A stretch of 64,000 nt of DNA from an uncultured Rhizobiaceae group bacterium (GTDB lineage Bacteria > Pseudomonadota > Alphaproteobacteria > Rhizobiales > Rhizobiaceae), in contig CALHCF010000012.1 of the NCBI GenBank assembly GCA_937930635.1, forward strand, positions 1 to 64,000. The letters run 5' to 3'. The position numbers and the translations under genes were made by a program. The notes below the pieces were generated by a model that saw only the letters and a program-made list of their open reading frames with translations, did no database searches and was not told where the DNA came from. Positions 2,906 through 9,725 of this stretch are shown one piece after another. Position 1 is the first letter of the stretch. Each line of letters begins with the position of its first letter.

Positions 2906-2925
2906 CACTCAATTAAAATTGAGTG
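2906..2925. repeat. Perfect inverted repeat at the end of the Hxs operon
   Basis: CACTCAATT (2906-2914) and AATTGAGTG (2917-2925) form a perfect 9-bp palindrome with a 2-base centre, spanning the stop codon of the peroxidase gene. There is no T run after it in the direction of transcription, so it could be a weak terminator, an RNA-stability element or a protein site. A second short palindrome (GATCGAGCGATC, 2889-2900) lies next to it. Confidence 0.45.
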
Positions 2926-4120
2926 TTTTGAGAAACGAAACCAAATTTTGAACTTCCTCTTTGGTCAAACTGGGCACTTCAAACGAATTACGTGACCAGG
3001 CCTTAAGCGCTTTGTAAAACTCGATCCGTCTGTTCTGTTGCTCGGGATAGCCGCTGGCTCGCAGAGGGTCAAAATGTGCTACGATCGCTTGTGCCAAACT
3101 CTGGGCTGAACCTGAGTGAAAATATGGACCAGTTTCTGAAACGTTGTACAAAGGTGGTGTTCGAACCTTGAACAGGTCTTCCGGATCGAATGTAGTGTTG
3201 TAGCGCCCGAAATCCTGACCAAAACCATTCTTGCCAAATCCTGCAATTGCAAAAGGTACTGTATAAAATTTCTGGTCGGTGAACATTGCCCCTGAATGAC
3301 AGGCAAAGCAGCGTCCTTTGCCAAAAAAAATTAGTCCACCAGAGATCTCGCTTTGAGACAGCATTCCGCCTCCAAACACGAACTTGTGGAATCGAGTTTC
3401 CTTGATGCGAAATTTGTCTCGAATATGTTCTGCTATAGCTGCCGGAAACATTGAGAACTTTATGTCAATTCGCTCCACATCGAATGCCCTTGAAATCTCA
3501 TTTGACAGCGTATCATCCTTGAGCAACCGAACTAGCAAGTCATCGAAGACCTTGTTCGCCGACGCAGCAGTTTCAGTTTTTAAGTCATTGATATCACCAT
3601 CCTCTCGCACCATTTCGCGAAGCTCAACAAATGGCAGGTGAGCGGCAACTTTGAGCGGATCGTCGGACGGTGGGTTGGTGCCAAACTGACTGACAATGCC
3701 TTGATCAGTCCGTACAACTTTGCCGTCCCAGAAGAATGTATCGAAACCAATCGAGCCCCTTCCCCACAAAGGTAGGGTGTTACGTGGAACGATTACGCCA
3801 CCGGAGTCCATTCGTTTGAGACCAAAGCCTTTTCCACCAACACCGATAGCGTTTGGCAGGCCGTCAGCAGAAGAAAACTCGTCACGATGGCAGGTTTGAC
3901 ATGACGTGTCTCCGTTGAAGCTTAGTCGTTCGTCTTTGAAGAGCTTCTCTCCAAGCTTGCTCTTTTTCGAATTTATTGTACCGACCATTTGATTTGGAGG
4001 GATCAAGCCATTCTCGAGGGCGCGCTTCCTCAACAACTCCGTTCGCATATCGGCAGAAGCCGGAATAATCGTGACTAACAAGCCGATGAACACGCCGATA
4101 AATCTAATATTGAAACTCAT
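2909..4120 (-). CDS. MauG-like di-heme cytochrome c peroxidase of the Hxs system
   Basis: A 403-residue exported di-heme protein of the bacterial cytochrome c peroxidase/MauG superfamily. The start at 4120 gives a clean signal peptide (MSFNIRFIGVFIGLLV, ending near ASA) and is preceded by GAGG; a start at 4162 would lie inside the upstream gene. Two heme-binding motifs are present: CQTCH (Cys74, Cys77, His78) and CFACH (Cys271, Cys274, His275). Family knowledge: MauG oxidises tryptophan residues of a partner protein, and a MauG-like protein is a known associate of some His-Xaa-Ser loci. The start overlaps the preceding gene by 17 bases, so it is translated with the hxs genes. I infer that it oxidises HxsA or another product of the cluster in the periplasm. 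A simple peroxide-detoxifying role is the alternative. Confidence 0.85.
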   Translation of the reverse strand: MSFNIRFIGVFIGLLVTIIPASADMRTELLRKRALENGLIPPNQMVGTINSKKSKLGEKLFKDERLSFNGDTSCQTCHRDEFSSADGLPNAIGVGGKGFGLKRMDSGGVIVPRNTLPLWGRGSIGFDTFFWDGKVVRTDQGIVSQFGTNPPSDDPLKVAAHLPFVELREMVREDGDINDLKTETAASANKVFDDLLVRLLKDDTLSNEISRAFDVERIDIKFSMFPAAIAEHIRDKFRIKETRFHKFVFGGGMLSQSEISGGLIFFGKGRCFACHSGAMFTDQKFYTVPFAIAGFGKNGFGQDFGRYNTTFDPEDLFKVRTPPLYNVSETGPYFHSGSAQSLAQAIVAHFDPLRASGYPEQQNRRIEFYKALKAWSRNSFEVPSLTKEEVQNLVSFLKTLNFN

Positions 4121-4499
4121 GAACCTCGACCACCTTTTTGAGCGACCCGGCATTGGCTTCAATCGCCTTCAGAGCAAGTTCAGAAAGGTCATTGTCTGAT
4201 AGACCCCATCTCAGCAGTTTCTTACGCTTTAAGTCGTAAGGCTGGCAATCTAGTAGCCCTAGTTCCGCAGCTTTTAGCTCAGTTACCGCAATTTTGGTTG
4301 GTCTGAGCACAACACGTTGCTTGGCAATAAGGTGCGACTTCATTGCTGAATCACACGCATGAACAAGCCGGGCATAACCCTCTGCATTGATCATCACGAC
4401 AGCCTCTTTCCAGAGTGGCTTTGAAAAAGCGCCAACCGCAATGCCAACGACGAAAACACCGACAAATTTCAGACTACTTGACCACGAGACCGAATGCAC
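4104..4499 (-). CDS. Small His-Xaa-Ser system membrane protein (TIGR03982-like)
   Basis: A 131-residue protein with one N-terminal membrane helix (LKFVGVFVVGIAVGAF) and a soluble remainder rich in Lys and Leu. Two cysteines (in HACDSAM and LLDCQPY) are the notable residues. Its position between hxsA and the peroxidase, together with its size, matches a small conserved companion of His-Xaa-Ser loci known to me as the TIGR03982 family; I assign this from recall and context, not a search. The start is a GTG at 4499, preceded by GGAG and overlapping hxsA by 26 bases. Its function is unknown. A membrane anchor or chaperone for HxsA maturation would fit. Confidence 0.65.
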   Translation of the reverse strand: MHSVSWSSSLKFVGVFVVGIAVGAFSKPLWKEAVVMINAEGYARLVHACDSAMKSHLIAKQRVVLRPTKIAVTELKAAELGLLDCQPYDLKRKKLLRWGLSDNDLSELALKAIEANAGSLKKVVEVHEFQY

Positions 4500-5061
4500 T
4501 TTGCATCTCCGGGGTTACGGTTCCTGTCACTTTGTAACCAGAATCAGCTTGGTATTTAGAGATCGCGACCTTGAGTTGGGGACCCATGATCCCGTCAATG
4601 GCCCCATTGTAATAGCCAAATGCCTGAAGTCCGATTTGCAGTTTCTTTAGTAGTTCGATGAACTGCACCGTATTCCCCTTGAGCGGTTTAGGTTTACGGG
4701 TGAGGGCCGGGGAACTCGGCAGAATTGATGTGTTCGGAGTTGTTCGCGGGTTTCGCGTCGTCGGAGAAATCAATCTAGTAGCAGGTGGTGTGTATACACG
4801 TGAGGGACTTGGAGCCCGCGGCACGGCGGTTCTATAACCACCGCCTGAACTGGAGCGATGGCTACCATGGCTTCCATGACTGCTATGTGACCGGTGCGCC
4901 GCCATCGTGTAGGCATCGGTTGCGCCAACGATGCTGATGAGTGAGCGTTTTGGCGAATTAGAGAGGTCATCTGTAGGTTCAATGGCGCTTTCCACTGGAG
5001 AGCCATCCAATGCCAAGCCTGCTGCAATTAACGACGGTACTGCAAAAGCTCTCTTTTTCAT
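4474..5061 (-). CDS. hxsA: His-Xaa-Ser repeat protein HxsA (putative modification substrate)
   Basis: A 195-residue protein with an N-terminal hydrophobic export-like segment (MKKRAFAVPSLIAAGLA). At residues 56-70 it has five consecutive His-Xaa-Ser triplets (HRS, HSS, HGS, HGS, HRS). A Pro/Thr/Ser-rich linker follows, and then a C-terminal peptidoglycan-binding type 1 domain (LQIGLQAFGYYNGAIDGIMG onward). This order is that of HxsA, the defining protein of the His-Xaa-Ser system. Family knowledge: HxsA always occurs with the paired radical SAM proteins HxsB and HxsC and is thought to be their substrate; the chemistry is unknown. The ATG at 5061 overlaps the hxsC stop (ATGA); an ATG further upstream lies within hxsC. 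I infer export and anchoring to the cell wall through the C-terminal domain. Confidence 0.88.
   Translation of the reverse strand: MKKRAFAVPSLIAAGLALDGSPVESAIEPTDDLSNSPKRSLISIVGATDAYTMAAHRSHSSHGSHGSHRSSSGGGYRTAVPRAPSPSRVYTPPATRLISPTTRNPRTTPNTSILPSSPALTRKPKPLKGNTVQFIELLKKLQIGLQAFGYYNGAIDGIMGPQLKVAISKYQADSGYKVTGTVTPEMQSAFGLVVK
4852..4896 (-). other. HxS repeat block of HxsA (likely modified core)
   Basis: Fifteen codons encode five uninterrupted His-Xaa-Ser triplets, residues 56-70 of HxsA, preceded by YTMAA and followed by SSGGG. The short, low-complexity character and the flanking Ser/Gly residues make it the best candidate for the segment acted on by HxsB/HxsC. That it is modified is inference. 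Confidence 0.7.
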
Positions 5062-6146
5062 TGGGCAACTATTCCTGCAAAACCCCTTTGATGATCGTAC
5101 CACTCAAAGAAGCCGCCGCAAGAGGACTTGATGGAACAACCTTGGCATTCGTCAAGATATTTCGTTTTCCAGTCAGAAATCGAAGGGACAGCGTAATCGC
5201 GATACCCAGCCGGCACAGTGCAGAGAGGAAAATTGTAGAGATAGATTTGCAACCCCATTTCGACCGATTTGTTGATGGCAAATGCGATTTGGTTAAAGTC
5301 CTTTGAATGGTCAAAAAATACTGAATCCCAGTTCATTCGCGCGTAGCCAATACTCTCCAGCTGCATGATCGACCAAAACTCGGCATGGCGGAGGTGACGA
5401 GTTAGAAATCGAGCCAGTGATGGTAGCGTTTCGACATTGTTGTCGAGCAGAACTGTACGAAGTTCGACCCGGACCGGAGAGCGCATTAGAATTGTGAACG
5501 AGACCTTGAGCCTCTCGAGTGCGCCTTCCTTTCCTACTATTTCGTCATGGACCTCTGCTCGATCCGAATAGACCGGAATGGCCCACAAGACGTTTTTTAC
5601 CCAAGGTTGATTTAAGAAAGTTAGATCGTCTTCCGTGAAATGCTGTGCGTTGGTCAGAACGTGAAACTGTATGTCCGGCCTGTTGCGATGGACTTCTGCA
5701 ATCATCTCAAACAGTTGTTCTTTGTACAGTGTTGGCTCGCCACCTGATATGCCGATCACGGCATCCTTGGGCGCTAATAGAGCTGCTTGAATAAATGTCG
5801 GGAAGAGATCCACATGATGTTTTTTCGGCGGCTGTGAACACATGACACAAAGCTGGTCGCACTGCTCTGTGATCAAAAACGTGTTGTGCGGCGAGCTTGC
5901 CCGAATCAAGCGGTGAGCAATATTTCTGGACGGTTCCACCAGCAACACATCACCTGAACAATCCTTGAGCGCCAGATCGGGCAAGCGAACGATTCCTTCA
6001 CACAAAAGGAAGCAAGTTCCGCCATCCGCATGCGGATGAATTTCACGGTCGTACTCAGTGCTACATTGCCCATGAGCCGATAAGCGAACTAGGAAGTCGT
6101 CTTCTATCTCATCTGAGCACAACGCACGAACCCTAAGAGGTATCAT
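5058..6146 (-). CDS. hxsC: Radical SAM protein HxsC
   Basis: A 362-residue radical SAM enzyme. The cluster-binding motif CDQLCVMC gives Cys96, Cys100 and Cys103, unusually far into the protein, which leaves about 90 N-terminal residues for another role. A glycine-rich SAM-binding segment (GISGGEPTLY) follows. The C-terminus carries CQGCSIKSSCGGFFEW, a short SPASM-like cysteine cluster that may bind a second iron-sulfur centre. This layout and the neighbours match HxsC. It starts at 6146 in an ATGA overlap with hxsB and ends in another with hxsA, so the stoichiometry of all three is probably tied. Family knowledge: HxsB and HxsC always occur as a pair. I infer that both act on HxsA in the cytoplasm before export. 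Confidence 0.88.
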   Translation of the reverse strand: MIPLRVRALCSDEIEDDFLVRLSAHGQCSTEYDREIHPHADGGTCFLLCEGIVRLPDLALKDCSGDVLLVEPSRNIAHRLIRASSPHNTFLITEQCDQLCVMCSQPPKKHHVDLFPTFIQAALLAPKDAVIGISGGEPTLYKEQLFEMIAEVHRNRPDIQFHVLTNAQHFTEDDLTFLNQPWVKNVLWAIPVYSDRAEVHDEIVGKEGALERLKVSFTILMRSPVRVELRTVLLDNNVETLPSLARFLTRHLRHAEFWSIMQLESIGYARMNWDSVFFDHSKDFNQIAFAINKSVEMGLQIYLYNFPLCTVPAGYRDYAVPSISDWKTKYLDECQGCSIKSSCGGFFEWYDHQRGFAGIVAQ

Positions 6147-7555
6147 GGTGCACCAAGTCCGCGTTCTATCGTGCCTTTGGGAACACCCAGCCACTTGGCA
6201 TAGGCAATCCTTGCTTTTGGTGAGTCGCTGCTCAAGTCGGATGCTATACGATCAAAGATGGCTAGATGCCGTTTGCAGAACCAAGACTCACTTTTGATGA
6301 TATCTGTCCTACCATAGCGTGAGAGGTCATCGACAAGATCTATTCCGCAGCAAGATTGGTAAGGGCAATGAATGCATTCTTCATGAAACGAATTGATCGC
6401 GCTTTCATTCAGTTGTTCCAGCTTTGAAAAATCCAATCCTTTGGTGACGTGTCCAACTGAGAGATCCACTTGTCCTATTCGTGTTAGCATCCGGGATTCG
6501 TCCGTCGGATAGAATGCCCCGTCGTAGTCGATCACCAAATAGTCCTTGCCGAAATAATTGGGATTGCGCAGATCGACGTGATGATCTTCGCCAGCGTGCA
6601 AAAAACGCTTTAGACAGAGAGTGAAATAGAATTCCACCATCAGCTCAGAATTTTCGTTTGCTCTCTCAATTAGGGTGTCGATGAAACTGAAATACAATTT
6701 GTTCCACGATTCAAACGCATCCCTAGAAGAGGAAAATGTTTTTCGGGCAAATCCCTGATAGTTGACCGGTCGAAGGTAGATCGAGTTTAGACCAAGAGAA
6801 CTGTAGGCGCTGATAAGGTCCTCCAAATTAGCATCACCGGTCGGGTCGATGGTTGGCAGCGCGGAGACTTTTCCTTTTGGGGAGCGATCAACCAGTTTTT
6901 GAATGTTGTTGAAAAACTCTTCGGTTCGGCCCTTGCTTTTGGTTCTGTGTTCTTGATGGGCAGTCCAGTCCCCGTCAAGAGACGTGCTTACAAAAACATC
7001 TTCATGGTCCAAGAATCCCAGAACGTCCGGCCTCAGATCTTGGAGATTTGTGCATACAATGAACTCACAGCTGTCGAATTGTTTGCGGCAATGACCTGCA
7101 ATGCGTTCCAGGAGATCCACCCTCAGGGTGGGTTCTCCTCCTTGAAACTCGATTTTGATCCGTTTGGTTTCAAGCCCATCCAAATATCGAAGCACGTGGG
7201 AGAGGGTTTCGTCGTTCCAGTCGTAACCTTGAGCTTTTTTGTTTACACGTGAGACTTGGCAGTAACTGCAGGCAAGGTCGCACCTCAATGTCGGAACAAG
7301 TATAAGATAATTGGTCGTTTGAGCCTGTGCCATGCGCAATGCGTACCGGCGAAGAAATGAAACACCATTGAAACTCTTCAGGTCCGTCGCTGCGAGTCCA
7401 TTTTCATTCAGAAAGCCCCAATCTCTGTTCGTGAGATTTTCTGTCGCGTAACGATCAAGGAATTTTTCATCTCCAAAAAATTGATCCCCCGCGTCGTTCG
7501 CGAACACAAAGCGATCAGTTGCAATTTCGCGGAATTTAAGAGGGAAGTCGATCAT
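6143..7555 (-). CDS. hxsB: Radical SAM/SPASM-like protein HxsB
   Basis: A 470-residue radical SAM enzyme with the motif CDLACSYC (Cys92, Cys96, Cys99) and the SAM-contacting sequence FQGGEPTL at 137-144. The C-terminal region has further cysteines at 394, 397, 402, 403 and 427 (CIHCPYQSCC), consistent with a SPASM or twitch extension holding auxiliary clusters, as in peptide-modifying enzymes such as anaerobic sulfatase maturases. About 90 residues precede the core. It overlaps hxsD upstream and hxsC downstream by four bases each. The closeness in layout to known RiPP-maturing enzymes makes a peptide substrate likely; HxsA is the obvious candidate by context. Confidence 0.9.
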   Translation of the reverse strand: MIDFPLKFREIATDRFVFANDAGDQFFGDEKFLDRYATENLTNRDWGFLNENGLAATDLKSFNGVSFLRRYALRMAQAQTTNYLILVPTLRCDLACSYCQVSRVNKKAQGYDWNDETLSHVLRYLDGLETKRIKIEFQGGEPTLRVDLLERIAGHCRKQFDSCEFIVCTNLQDLRPDVLGFLDHEDVFVSTSLDGDWTAHQEHRTKSKGRTEEFFNNIQKLVDRSPKGKVSALPTIDPTGDANLEDLISAYSSLGLNSIYLRPVNYQGFARKTFSSSRDAFESWNKLYFSFIDTLIERANENSELMVEFYFTLCLKRFLHAGEDHHVDLRNPNYFGKDYLVIDYDGAFYPTDESRMLTRIGQVDLSVGHVTKGLDFSKLEQLNESAINSFHEECIHCPYQSCCGIDLVDDLSRYGRTDIIKSESWFCKRHLAIFDRIASDLSSDSPKARIAYAKWLGVPKGTIERGLGAP

Positions 7556-7836
7556 TTCTCTACCAGAGCTCGGACAATGCCTCTGCGCATATCGAGTGTT
7601 TCCTGATAGATCTTTTCTCGATAGAGGCAGTGTCGAAATTCTTTGGCGATCTGCAAGTTGTCCAAGCCTTGATCCTTTGAAATCCGAACATCATCCCCCA
7701 GAATGGAGATACTGCAACTGGGATAAACAACCAAAAACCTTATTTTAGCCGCTGCTGTATAAGGCAAAAAAGAGGGGTCAATCTCGATGTCTATATAATC
7801 CTTTAAAGATCGATTTATTGCACCGTCAATATCCAT
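7552..7836 (-). CDS. hxsD: His-Xaa-Ser system protein HxsD
   Basis: A 94-residue soluble protein without signal peptide or membrane segment, first gene of the hxs operon. The C-terminal part (EFRHCLYREKIYQETLDMR) resembles the conserved segment of HxsD, a small protein found only with HxsA, B and C. I chose the ATG at 7836 because AGAGGAG precedes it at good spacing; an ATG at 7854 is possible. Its stop overlaps the hxsB start (ATGA). Function is unknown. Its size and position recall the small recognition or chaperone proteins that hold precursor peptides for radical SAM enzymes in other pathways, but no such fold can be seen from the sequence alone. Confidence 0.8.
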   Translation of the reverse strand: MDIDGAINRSLKDYIDIEIDPSFLPYTAAAKIRFLVVYPSCSISILGDDVRISKDQGLDNLQIAKEFRHCLYREKIYQETLDMRRGIVRALVEK

Positions 7837-8703: not shown

Positions 8704-9174
8704 TCAACCGCCTCTGATTTTCATCAACCCACGGTTCACCAGGTTTTCTTCGACGACCTTGTTAAACTCATCGCCTTCGGCAACCACTTTGCTTTTGAAT
8801 AGATACCAATCTCCATTGGGCTGTTTCTTTTGATAGATTGCGCCGTTTCTCGTTCTGTGTGCAAAACAGGTGCGGGATTTTCCGTTACCCTTTTTTGTGC
8901 GCCAAAGCGCTCGGAAACAGAGGCGACCGCGACCCGGCAACGTCCATTTTCCTGTTCCAAAACTGCGGTCCTTTACCGAGAGGACTGCGGTAAATCTTCT
9001 GTGGCCTCGGGCGAAATGGCCAGCACCTTGCTCCCATTTCCACGACTTGTCGCCATAGATGGCGTAGAGTTCCTGCGGGGTCACATAGCGTCCATAGTCC
9101 TTGCGCTCACCAGCCCAACCCTGTGTTGCAAACGTTATCGGCAGAAAGATTAAAGCGATAAGCGACATATTCAT
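8704..9174 (-). CDS. DUF995 family secreted protein (copy 1)
   Basis: A 156-residue exported protein: signal peptide MNMSLIALIFLPITFATQGWA, then the DUF995 domain. The family pattern is clear: ELYAIYGDKSWKWEQGAGHF, RGRLCFRALW, CFAHRTRNGAIYQKK and GDWYLFKSK. Two cysteines (in LCFRA and TCFAH) could form a disulfide. I chose the ATG at 9174; a TTG at 9189 would only lengthen the front. Family function is unknown, and members are found mainly in rhizobia and relatives as periplasmic proteins. It lies directly after a close paralogue in the same direction, so the pair probably arose by tandem duplication. Confidence 0.8.
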   Translation of the reverse strand: MNMSLIALIFLPITFATQGWAGERKDYGRYVTPQELYAIYGDKSWKWEQGAGHFARGHRRFTAVLSVKDRSFGTGKWTLPGRGRLCFRALWRTKKGNGKSRTCFAHRTRNGAIYQKKQPNGDWYLFKSKVVAEGDEFNKVVEENLVNRGLMKIRGG

Positions 9175-9236
9175 GTTCGAAAATCTCAAGTGTCCAACTC
9201 CACAGAAGGCTCAGTAGATTTTGATCTTTATCACGA

Positions 9237-9725
9237 TTATCGAGAGGCTTTCTCCAGGCGGTGTGCCACATAGTCGCCACGCCTGAATTTTCTATATTCA
9301 TCCATCATCCGGCCTGGGTTGTTCCGGAAGACATACCACTCGCCCTTCGGCTCACGCTTTTGATAGATGCGACCATCAACCAATCTGTGCGAAAAGCAGG
9401 TTACAGCGCGGGTCCGGGTTTTTCCGGCATACCAGAACGCTCGAAAACAGACTTTGCCGTTTCCTGGTATGTACCAGTTTCCAACAGCGTATTCCTGTTT
9501 CTTCACAGAGATCACAGAGGTGAAGCGCCGTTTGCTGCGCGCAAAGTAGCCGACTCCCTTTTCCCAGATCCAGCTTTTGTCTCCATACATTCTGTAGAGT
9601 TCCCTCGCTTTCAAAGGGCGCCCTTCCTTAGAAATGTTCCTTGCCTTACTTGCGGCGTCGGCCGGGATGCCATTCAGGCTCGCTAGCAAGGCCATGCAAC
9701 CAAACACCATAACCATTGTTCTCAT
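9237..9725 (-). CDS. DUF995 family secreted protein (copy 2)
   Basis: A 162-residue paralogue of the next gene. It has a signal peptide (MRTMVMVFGCMALLASLNG, ending at ADA), then ELYRMYGDKSWIWEKGVGYF, NGKVCFRAFWYAG, TCFSHRLVDGRIYQKREP and GEWYVFRN. The two cysteines align with those of the neighbour. GGAGAG lies just before the ATG. The C-terminus is Arg/Lys-rich. Family function is unknown; a periplasmic or cell-surface role is likely. A 62-base gap separates the two copies, so they may be cotranscribed. Confidence 0.82.
   Translation of the reverse strand: MRTMVMVFGCMALLASLNGIPADAASKARNISKEGRPLKARELYRMYGDKSWIWEKGVGYFARSKRRFTSVISVKKQEYAVGNWYIPGNGKVCFRAFWYAGKTRTRAVTCFSHRLVDGRIYQKREPKGEWYVFRNNPGRMMDEYRKFRRGDYVAHRLEKASR

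Follow-up and report, generated by a model that had tools for sequence, protein, structure and literature searches.

What does a di-heme enzyme named after MauG do in an operon whose other products appear to serve the modification of a His-Xaa-Ser (HxS) repeat protein? The question is raised by a six-gene locus in a 64,000-nucleotide stretch of DNA from an uncultured Rhizobiaceae bacterium (contig CALHCF010000012.1 of assembly GCA_937930635.1; the whole stretch is called the window below), in which hxsD, hxsB, hxsC and hxsA are followed by genes for a small protein of the TIGR03982 family and a MauG-like protein. The original prediction, made from the letters of the window, assigned the cytoplasmic modification of the HxsA repeats to the radical S-adenosylmethionine (SAM) enzymes HxsB and HxsC, and a further, periplasmic oxidation of the exported protein to the heme enzyme. 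From a comparison of hxs loci with and without the heme enzyme, we lean towards a different role: the TIGR03982 and MauG-like proteins would form a membrane-tethered, bis-His-ligated peroxidase pair that is recruited by a short linker motif to a wall-binding scaffold, and would not act as a long-range oxidase of the MauG type.

As a gene cluster the locus is ordinary. The kit is already known, because the NCBIfam names already pair the family as 'His-Xaa-Ser system-associated MauG-like protein', and the operon is a further member of this named system, in the form that includes the MauG-like protein. No functional study of Hxs and no paper stating the Hxs product was found in the open-licence literature. 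The linker motif, its occurrence on a separate protein, a fusion of the two partners and the His ligand of the enzyme are, as far as sequence comparison goes, new findings, none of which we found in print in a search that left most subscription papers and preprints outside. The locus is useful because a motif that predicts the presence of the heme pair turns mere co-occurrence into a test at thirteen residues of an otherwise unexplained system. The His ligand, in turn, warns against copying the mechanism of MauG onto every protein named MauG-like.

A linker motif that accompanies the heme pair

When public genomes were scanned with six aligned MauG-like proteins as the query, 43 loci emerged, mainly from Alphaproteobacteria and also from Polynucleobacter, Marinobacter and bins labelled Gammaproteobacteria, Binatia and Verrucomicrobiia. 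Together with the window and two further loci, L066 and L067, they make up a MauG-bearing set of 46. The MauG-free set comprises 32 loci (16 loci, a further six and ten from plasmids; two MauG homologs of the window's own genome were left out), 'MauG-free' meaning that none lies within the stretch fetched. TIGR03982 was absent from these 32 stretches as well. The view of the heme enzyme as a general part of Hxs is not supported by these loci. hxsB was present in 42 of the 46 MauG-bearing loci, the remaining four of which end at a contig edge upstream, and the co-occurrence of hxsB with the MauG-like gene is more than chance.

In HxsA proteins encoded near MauG-like genes, the variable stretch that links the HxS repeats to the peptidoglycan-binding domain carries the consensus RNxxSTPPSSVLPxxP. 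A search with the pattern [ST][TVN]P...[ILV][LM]P found the motif in the gene directly before TIGR03982 at 42 of 44 evaluable MauG loci and in HxsA of none of the 32 MauG-free loci. Among all 10,576 open reading frames (ORFs) of these loci the pattern matched 44, and 42 of them were the gene directly before TIGR03982; with Ser also allowed at the third position, the contrast was 43/44 against 0/32, with 48 ORFs matching overall. The two misses are L066, which has the near variant STSPRTVLP, and L109 from Marinobacter, in which nothing similar was seen. Of 40 distinct motif sequences, 39 retain the first Ser, 39 the Pro at the third position and all 40 the last Pro, and the surrounding linker is by eye otherwise variable. 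Such near-fixed residues would also fit a motif that is itself the substrate, with the peroxidase hydroxylating or otherwise oxidizing its Pro, Ser, Thr or Asn, and so would the transfer of the motif, along with the trio, to a second protein that is described below. We nevertheless regard a substrate role as unlikely, since the motif has no conserved aromatic or sulfur residue and the protein-modifying heme peroxidases known to us attack aromatic residues. A conserved Trp or Tyr in HxsA that could be a quinone precursor was not seen by eye in the listed sequences, and the count of Trp-free HxsA proteins, over-long starts included, does not separate loci with MauG (24/44) from those without (18/29).

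At four loci (L075, L081, L102 and L106) the HxS repeats and the motif are on different proteins, the motif belonging to a small protein that lacks HxS repeats and is encoded just before TIGR03982. Because the motif sits on a repeat-free protein there, it follows the TIGR03982/MauG pair and not the repeats. The C-terminal part of the motif protein exceeds the Pfam cut-off for PG_binding_1 in L081, L102 and L106 and stays below it in L075 (16.1 versus 23 bits). The repeat protein of L081 is longer and has a peptidoglycan-binding domain; those of L075, L102 and L106 are short, exceed the cut-off of the HxsA2 model and have no Pfam peptidoglycan-binding match, which means that a wall-bound HxsA, as originally envisaged, is not general among systems with a heme enzyme. 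The usual gene order is B-C-A-TIGR03982-MauG; in L075, L102 and L106 the repeat protein precedes hxsB, and in L081 hxsB/C/A are on the opposite strand.

In a tree of HxsB from 70 of the 78 loci (eight were dropped because HxsB was missing or shorter than 380 residues), the four split loci have an HxsB of a different clade, and in a quick tree of the MauG-like proteins, supported by the Shimodaira-Hasegawa-like approximate likelihood ratio test (SH-aLRT) only, their enzymes fall inside the main clade, together with that of L086. The MauG label requires nine changes on the 70-locus HxsB tree, and at least seven of these changes are forced by well-supported branches. Among seven independent pairs of loci differing in MauG, the motif differed in the same direction in six, did not differ in one and never differed in the opposite direction (median p 0.031, range 0.031-0.063, for a pattern chosen after the fact). 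On the simplest reading, scaffold, TIGR03982 and MauG-like protein constitute a transferable cassette. Eight loci (L099, L103-L105, L107, L108, L110 and L111) contain a fusion of a second MauG-like protein with a TIGR03982-like domain, and L072 has two genes for these parts; these second-type enzymes form a clade of their own in the quick tree. In L110 and L111 the first MauG-like gene is broken into two parts, separated by about 1.3 and 1.5 kb, and the second is whole.

More far-reaching is the idea that the RNxxSTPPSSVLP scaffold makes up, together with TIGR03982 and the MauG-like protein, a self-standing, transferable oxidase module, which joined different Hxs cores on more than one occasion and whose bis-His enzyme modifies a non-aromatic target on the cell-wall scaffold. 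We consider this quite improbable; to our knowledge, modification of a non-aromatic target is a chemistry not known for the superfamily of bacterial cytochrome c peroxidases (bCCPs) and MauG. The apparent movement of the cassette as a unit would also suit a pair that protects the modified protein in an accessory role, as peroxide scavenger or electron sink, with the motif as a mere linker inherited in the cassette, and the superfamily member BthA catalytically turns H2O2 into water (PMC6405878). However, near-fixed positions across Alphaproteobacteria, Polynucleobacter and bins labelled Gammaproteobacteria, Binatia and Verrucomicrobiia are not what one expects of a mere linker, and HxsA linkers of MauG-free loci lack the motif, so that we give little credence to a purely protective role.

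The heme ligand and the chemistry of the enzyme

The name MauG-like fits the fold. Like MauG of tryptophan tryptophylquinone (TTQ) biosynthesis, which also acts on a partner protein, and MbnH (6e1c), a MauG-like protein linked to copper homeostasis, the system enzyme has the di-heme bCCP/MauG fold with two CxxCH sites, and it exceeds the Pfam cut-off for CCP_MauG (PF03150, 75.2 versus 25.6 bits). It remains below the cut-offs of the MauG equivalog TIGR03791 (67.7 versus 443.85 bits) and of TIGR04039 (96.8 versus 362.85 bits). In an alignment of 44 system MauG-like proteins, the window's included, both CxxCH sites, Trp131, Glu169 and His349 are invariant (proteins shorter than 380 residues, such as the two-piece ones of L110 and L111, were dropped from residue counts). 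A profile alignment places His349 opposite the Tyr of 6e1c and the Met of the peroxidase 2c1u, and His349 is predicted to be the sixth ligand of the second heme.

In bCCPs the six-coordinate heme is Met-His and in MauG Tyr-His ligated, and replacement of this Tyr by His in MauG (Y294H) or BthA (Y463H) removes the near-infrared band of the bis-Fe(IV) state, with peroxidase turnover retained in BthA (PMC6405878). A bis-His second heme is found in the gamma subunit of hydrazine synthase, a MauG/bCCP homolog (PMC12607021), which differs from the system enzyme in being part of a nitrogen-cycle enzyme and has low similarity to it (hydrazine_gamma, 20.5 bits). Since the predicted sixth ligand is His in 44 of 44 enzymes, and not the Tyr needed for bis-Fe(IV), a MauG-type chemistry is not supported and the name MauG-like appears to mislead on mechanism. 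The enzyme keeps peroxidase features and most likely works as a tethered bis-His peroxidase and not via long-range bis-Fe(IV) chemistry. We know of no tie between a relative with a Met-His second heme and a peptide-modification operon.

Apart from the ligand, the view that the di-heme enzyme oxidizes the radical SAM-modified His/Ser repeats in the periplasm in the fashion of MauG, giving a cofactor, is made doubtful by the distribution of the trio, which tracks the linker motif even where this lies off the repeat protein, as at the four split loci, and by the 32 repeat systems without a heme enzyme nearby. The comparison thus does not support the repeats as target of a MauG-like reaction.

His349 is not special to the Hxs system, because it is also present in 37 of 39 homologs outside hxs, as well as in 9 of 9 second-type proteins. 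At the position of Trp131, Trp occurs in 44/44 and 9/9 system enzymes, and outside homologs have His (34/39) and rarely Trp (1/39). TIGR03981 homologs located elsewhere than in hxs loci are common among the relatives sampled (L011-L026, L034-L051, L179 and L180). They were rejected as members of the system, since neither TIGR03982 nor the motif was present at 37 such loci, taken with flanks of 1.5 kb, or at the two of the window's genome. In the TIGR03982 family itself, Cys49, Cys85 and His127 (window numbering) are invariant in 42 of 42 sequences (the cut sequence of L078 was dropped and L066 and L067 are not included), and the protein is taken as the putative membrane anchor of the pair.

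Proposed docking of the pair on a wall-binding scaffold

Family membership, gene order, the co-occurrence of the trio, the motif contrast, the split and fused arrangements and the invariant His are the sequence features that an explanation has to accommodate. They suggest a locus of two modules, a core Hxs module and an accessory heme module. In the core, HxsB and HxsC would, with HxsD, modify the HxS repeats of HxsA in the cytoplasm, as their family assignments suggest, and HxsA would then be exported and bind peptidoglycan. In the accessory module, TIGR03982 would be a small periplasmic subunit anchored in the inner membrane and the partner of the di-heme protein. The motif RNxxSTPPSSVLP would recruit this pair to the peptidoglycan-binding scaffold, which is probably the C-terminal half of HxsA here and a separate small protein elsewhere. 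Docked on the linker motif, the anchored pair could oxidize whatever adjoins it, either a partner or repeats brought alongside. The complex, the docking, the localization, the use of peroxide and the order of the steps are what we infer.

Several points weigh against a docked pair. Most of the loci later counted had already served to draw up the pattern; of three MauG loci that had not been used for it, two (L067 and L181) match and the third, L066, shows its near variant only. L109 carries TIGR03982 and MauG-like genes without the motif. The set contains near-copy loci, the 43 motif windows being 40 distinct sequences, and only 16 of the 32 MauG-free loci are from genomes searched whole for TIGR03981. 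Because the motif protein of the split loci lacks HxS repeats, the association of the peroxidase with repeats is left without explanation, and the motif could be a substrate or a traveller in the same cassette rather than a dock. The heme ligand was assigned by sequence alignment only, and Trp131 was taken as the interheme Trp from its FWDG motif. As the docked pair, MauG-fashion oxidation of the repeats, oxidation of the motif itself and peroxide scavenging are not mutually exclusive, the probabilities that we assign to these four readings add up to more than one.

A further search for hold-out loci gave one new locus, L181; L186 was L073 again, and 107 genomes of one family contained none. 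Weak TIGR03982 matches in L183-L185 were discarded, as these three genomes had no hxs profile match; that of L183, the only one of which the ORFs were read, lies inside what looks like a LacI-type regulator.

Operon layout, HxsD and occurrence of the system

An ORF check confirmed the original placement of six overlapping genes on the minus strand, from 7836 to 2909, in the order hxsD-hxsB-hxsC-hxsA-TIGR03982-MauG-like (Table 1). The junctions hxsD/hxsB, hxsB/hxsC and hxsC/hxsA are ATGA overlaps, hxsA and TIGR03982 share 26 bases and TIGR03982 and the MauG-like gene 17. The radical SAM motifs (CDLACSYC, HxsB residues 92-99; CDQLCVMC, HxsC residues 96-103), the heme sites (CQTCH, residues 74-78, and CFACH, residues 271-275) and the five triplets HRS-HSS-HGS-HGS-HRS of HxsA were likewise as described, and profile searches placed both radical SAM proteins in the NCBIfam HxsB and HxsC families. 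The Hxs system defined by TIGR03977, TIGR03978, TIGR03979, TIGR03981 and TIGR03982 recurs with its gene order in named genomes and plasmids. In the window, the NCBIfam cut-offs are exceeded by HxsB (TIGR03978, 384.3 versus 370 bits), HxsC (TIGR03977, 311.2 versus 267.9), the TIGR03982 protein (81.4 versus 40) and the MauG-like protein (TIGR03981, 355.2 versus 340), whereas HxsA is about 2 bits short (TIGR03979, 119.5 versus 121.65, E 1.7e-34) and HxsD is missed. The Pfam domains are Radical_SAM in HxsB and HxsC, PG_binding_1 in HxsA, and CCP_MauG in the MauG-like protein. By eye, the N-terminus of HxsA looks signal-like. Upstream of hxs on the same strand, positions 8704-9725 encode two adjoining DUF995 proteins of 161 and 162 residues.

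Table 1. Features of the hxs locus, in window coordinates
Feature	Position	Strand	Basis
hxsD, small partner protein of 94 residues, divergent HxsD	7552..7836	-	ORF, home-built profiles, AlphaFold2 (AF2) fold
hxsB, radical SAM maturase; CDLACSYC at 7259-7282	6143..7555	-	TIGR03978, PF04055
hxsC, second radical SAM maturase; CDQLCVMC at 5838-5861	5058..6146	-	TIGR03977
hxsA, His-Xaa-Ser repeat protein, exported-looking	4474..5061	-	TIGR03979 just under cut-off, PF01471
Five HxS triplets HRSHSSHGSHGSHRS, HxsA residues 56-70	4852..4896	-	Sequence
MauG-linked linker motif RNPRTTPNTSILPSSPA, HxsA residues 103-119; core TTPNTSILP at 4717-4743	4705..4755	-	Locus comparison
Peptidoglycan-binding domain of HxsA, residues 138-186	4504..4650	-	PF01471, 2.8e-12
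TIGR03982 protein starting with GTG, with a hydrophobic stretch at the N-terminus and invariant Cys49 and Cys85	4104..4499	-	TIGR03982; conservation in 42 sequences
Di-heme MauG-like protein, CxxCH at 3887-3901 and 3296-3310, His349 (3074-3076) at sixth-ligand position	2909..4120	-	TIGR03981

HxsD of the window had no NCBIfam match, even at E 1, and joins a divergent HxsD family only through profiles built in this analysis, which link the proteins at the HxsD position of other loci; the iterated profile scores the annotated HxsD of a Klebsiella plasmid (L170) at 24.5 bits only. Its AF2 model is beta-alpha-beta-beta-alpha (predicted local distance difference test, pLDDT, 89.3) and gave no clear match to the PqqD-like winged-helix fold of a recognition element for ribosomally synthesized and post-translationally modified peptides (RiPPs). 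On the alphaproteobacterial plasmids of L068, L069 and L166-L168 the gene in the place of hxsD overlaps hxsB, yet is annotated as hypothetical protein, and this HxsD branch seems to be missed by NCBIfam.

In genome counts that include the window's own genome, TIGR03981 exceeded its cut-off in 4 of 101 relatives and in 1 genome of a phylum-wide sample of 398, and HxsB was found in 5 and 14 of these, respectively. The heme enzyme is present in 1 of the 14 HxsB genomes of the phylum sample and in 3 of the 5 among relatives (G000, G033 and G044); in a fourth genome, G049, its gene lies where a contig ends. hxs genes occur on plasmids as well as chromosomes. Out of 72,556 plasmid records, 439 contain a match to HxsB of the window, which in 395 cases spans 80% or more of that protein; more than 400 of the 439 were not fetched for the locus set, nor were matches far below the HxsB cut-off. 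A search of viral contigs for MauG relatives gave 82 pattern matches, of which none was confirmed. A Leptospira phage record (KF114877.1, H121) contains a gene annotated as hxsB with 25% identity to that of the window.

Klebsiella accounts for 318 of the 439 plasmid records, and in the one that was read (L170) hxsDBCA is flanked by IS26 and IS1, with silver and copper genes nearby. On plasmids of Aminobacter (L069, 861-5311) and Mesorhizobium (L167, 8563-11365) a cyclic oligonucleotide-based antiphage signaling system (CBASS) set, consisting of a DncV-like synthase, a phospholipase and ThiF, lies no more than about 0.6 kb from hxs, on opposite sides; these are 2 of the 11 annotated plasmid loci that were fetched, a count with no control comparison. 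On a plasmid of Rhizobium tumorigenes (L168) the cyclophane maturase gene yhhB is located about 3.5 kb upstream of hxs.

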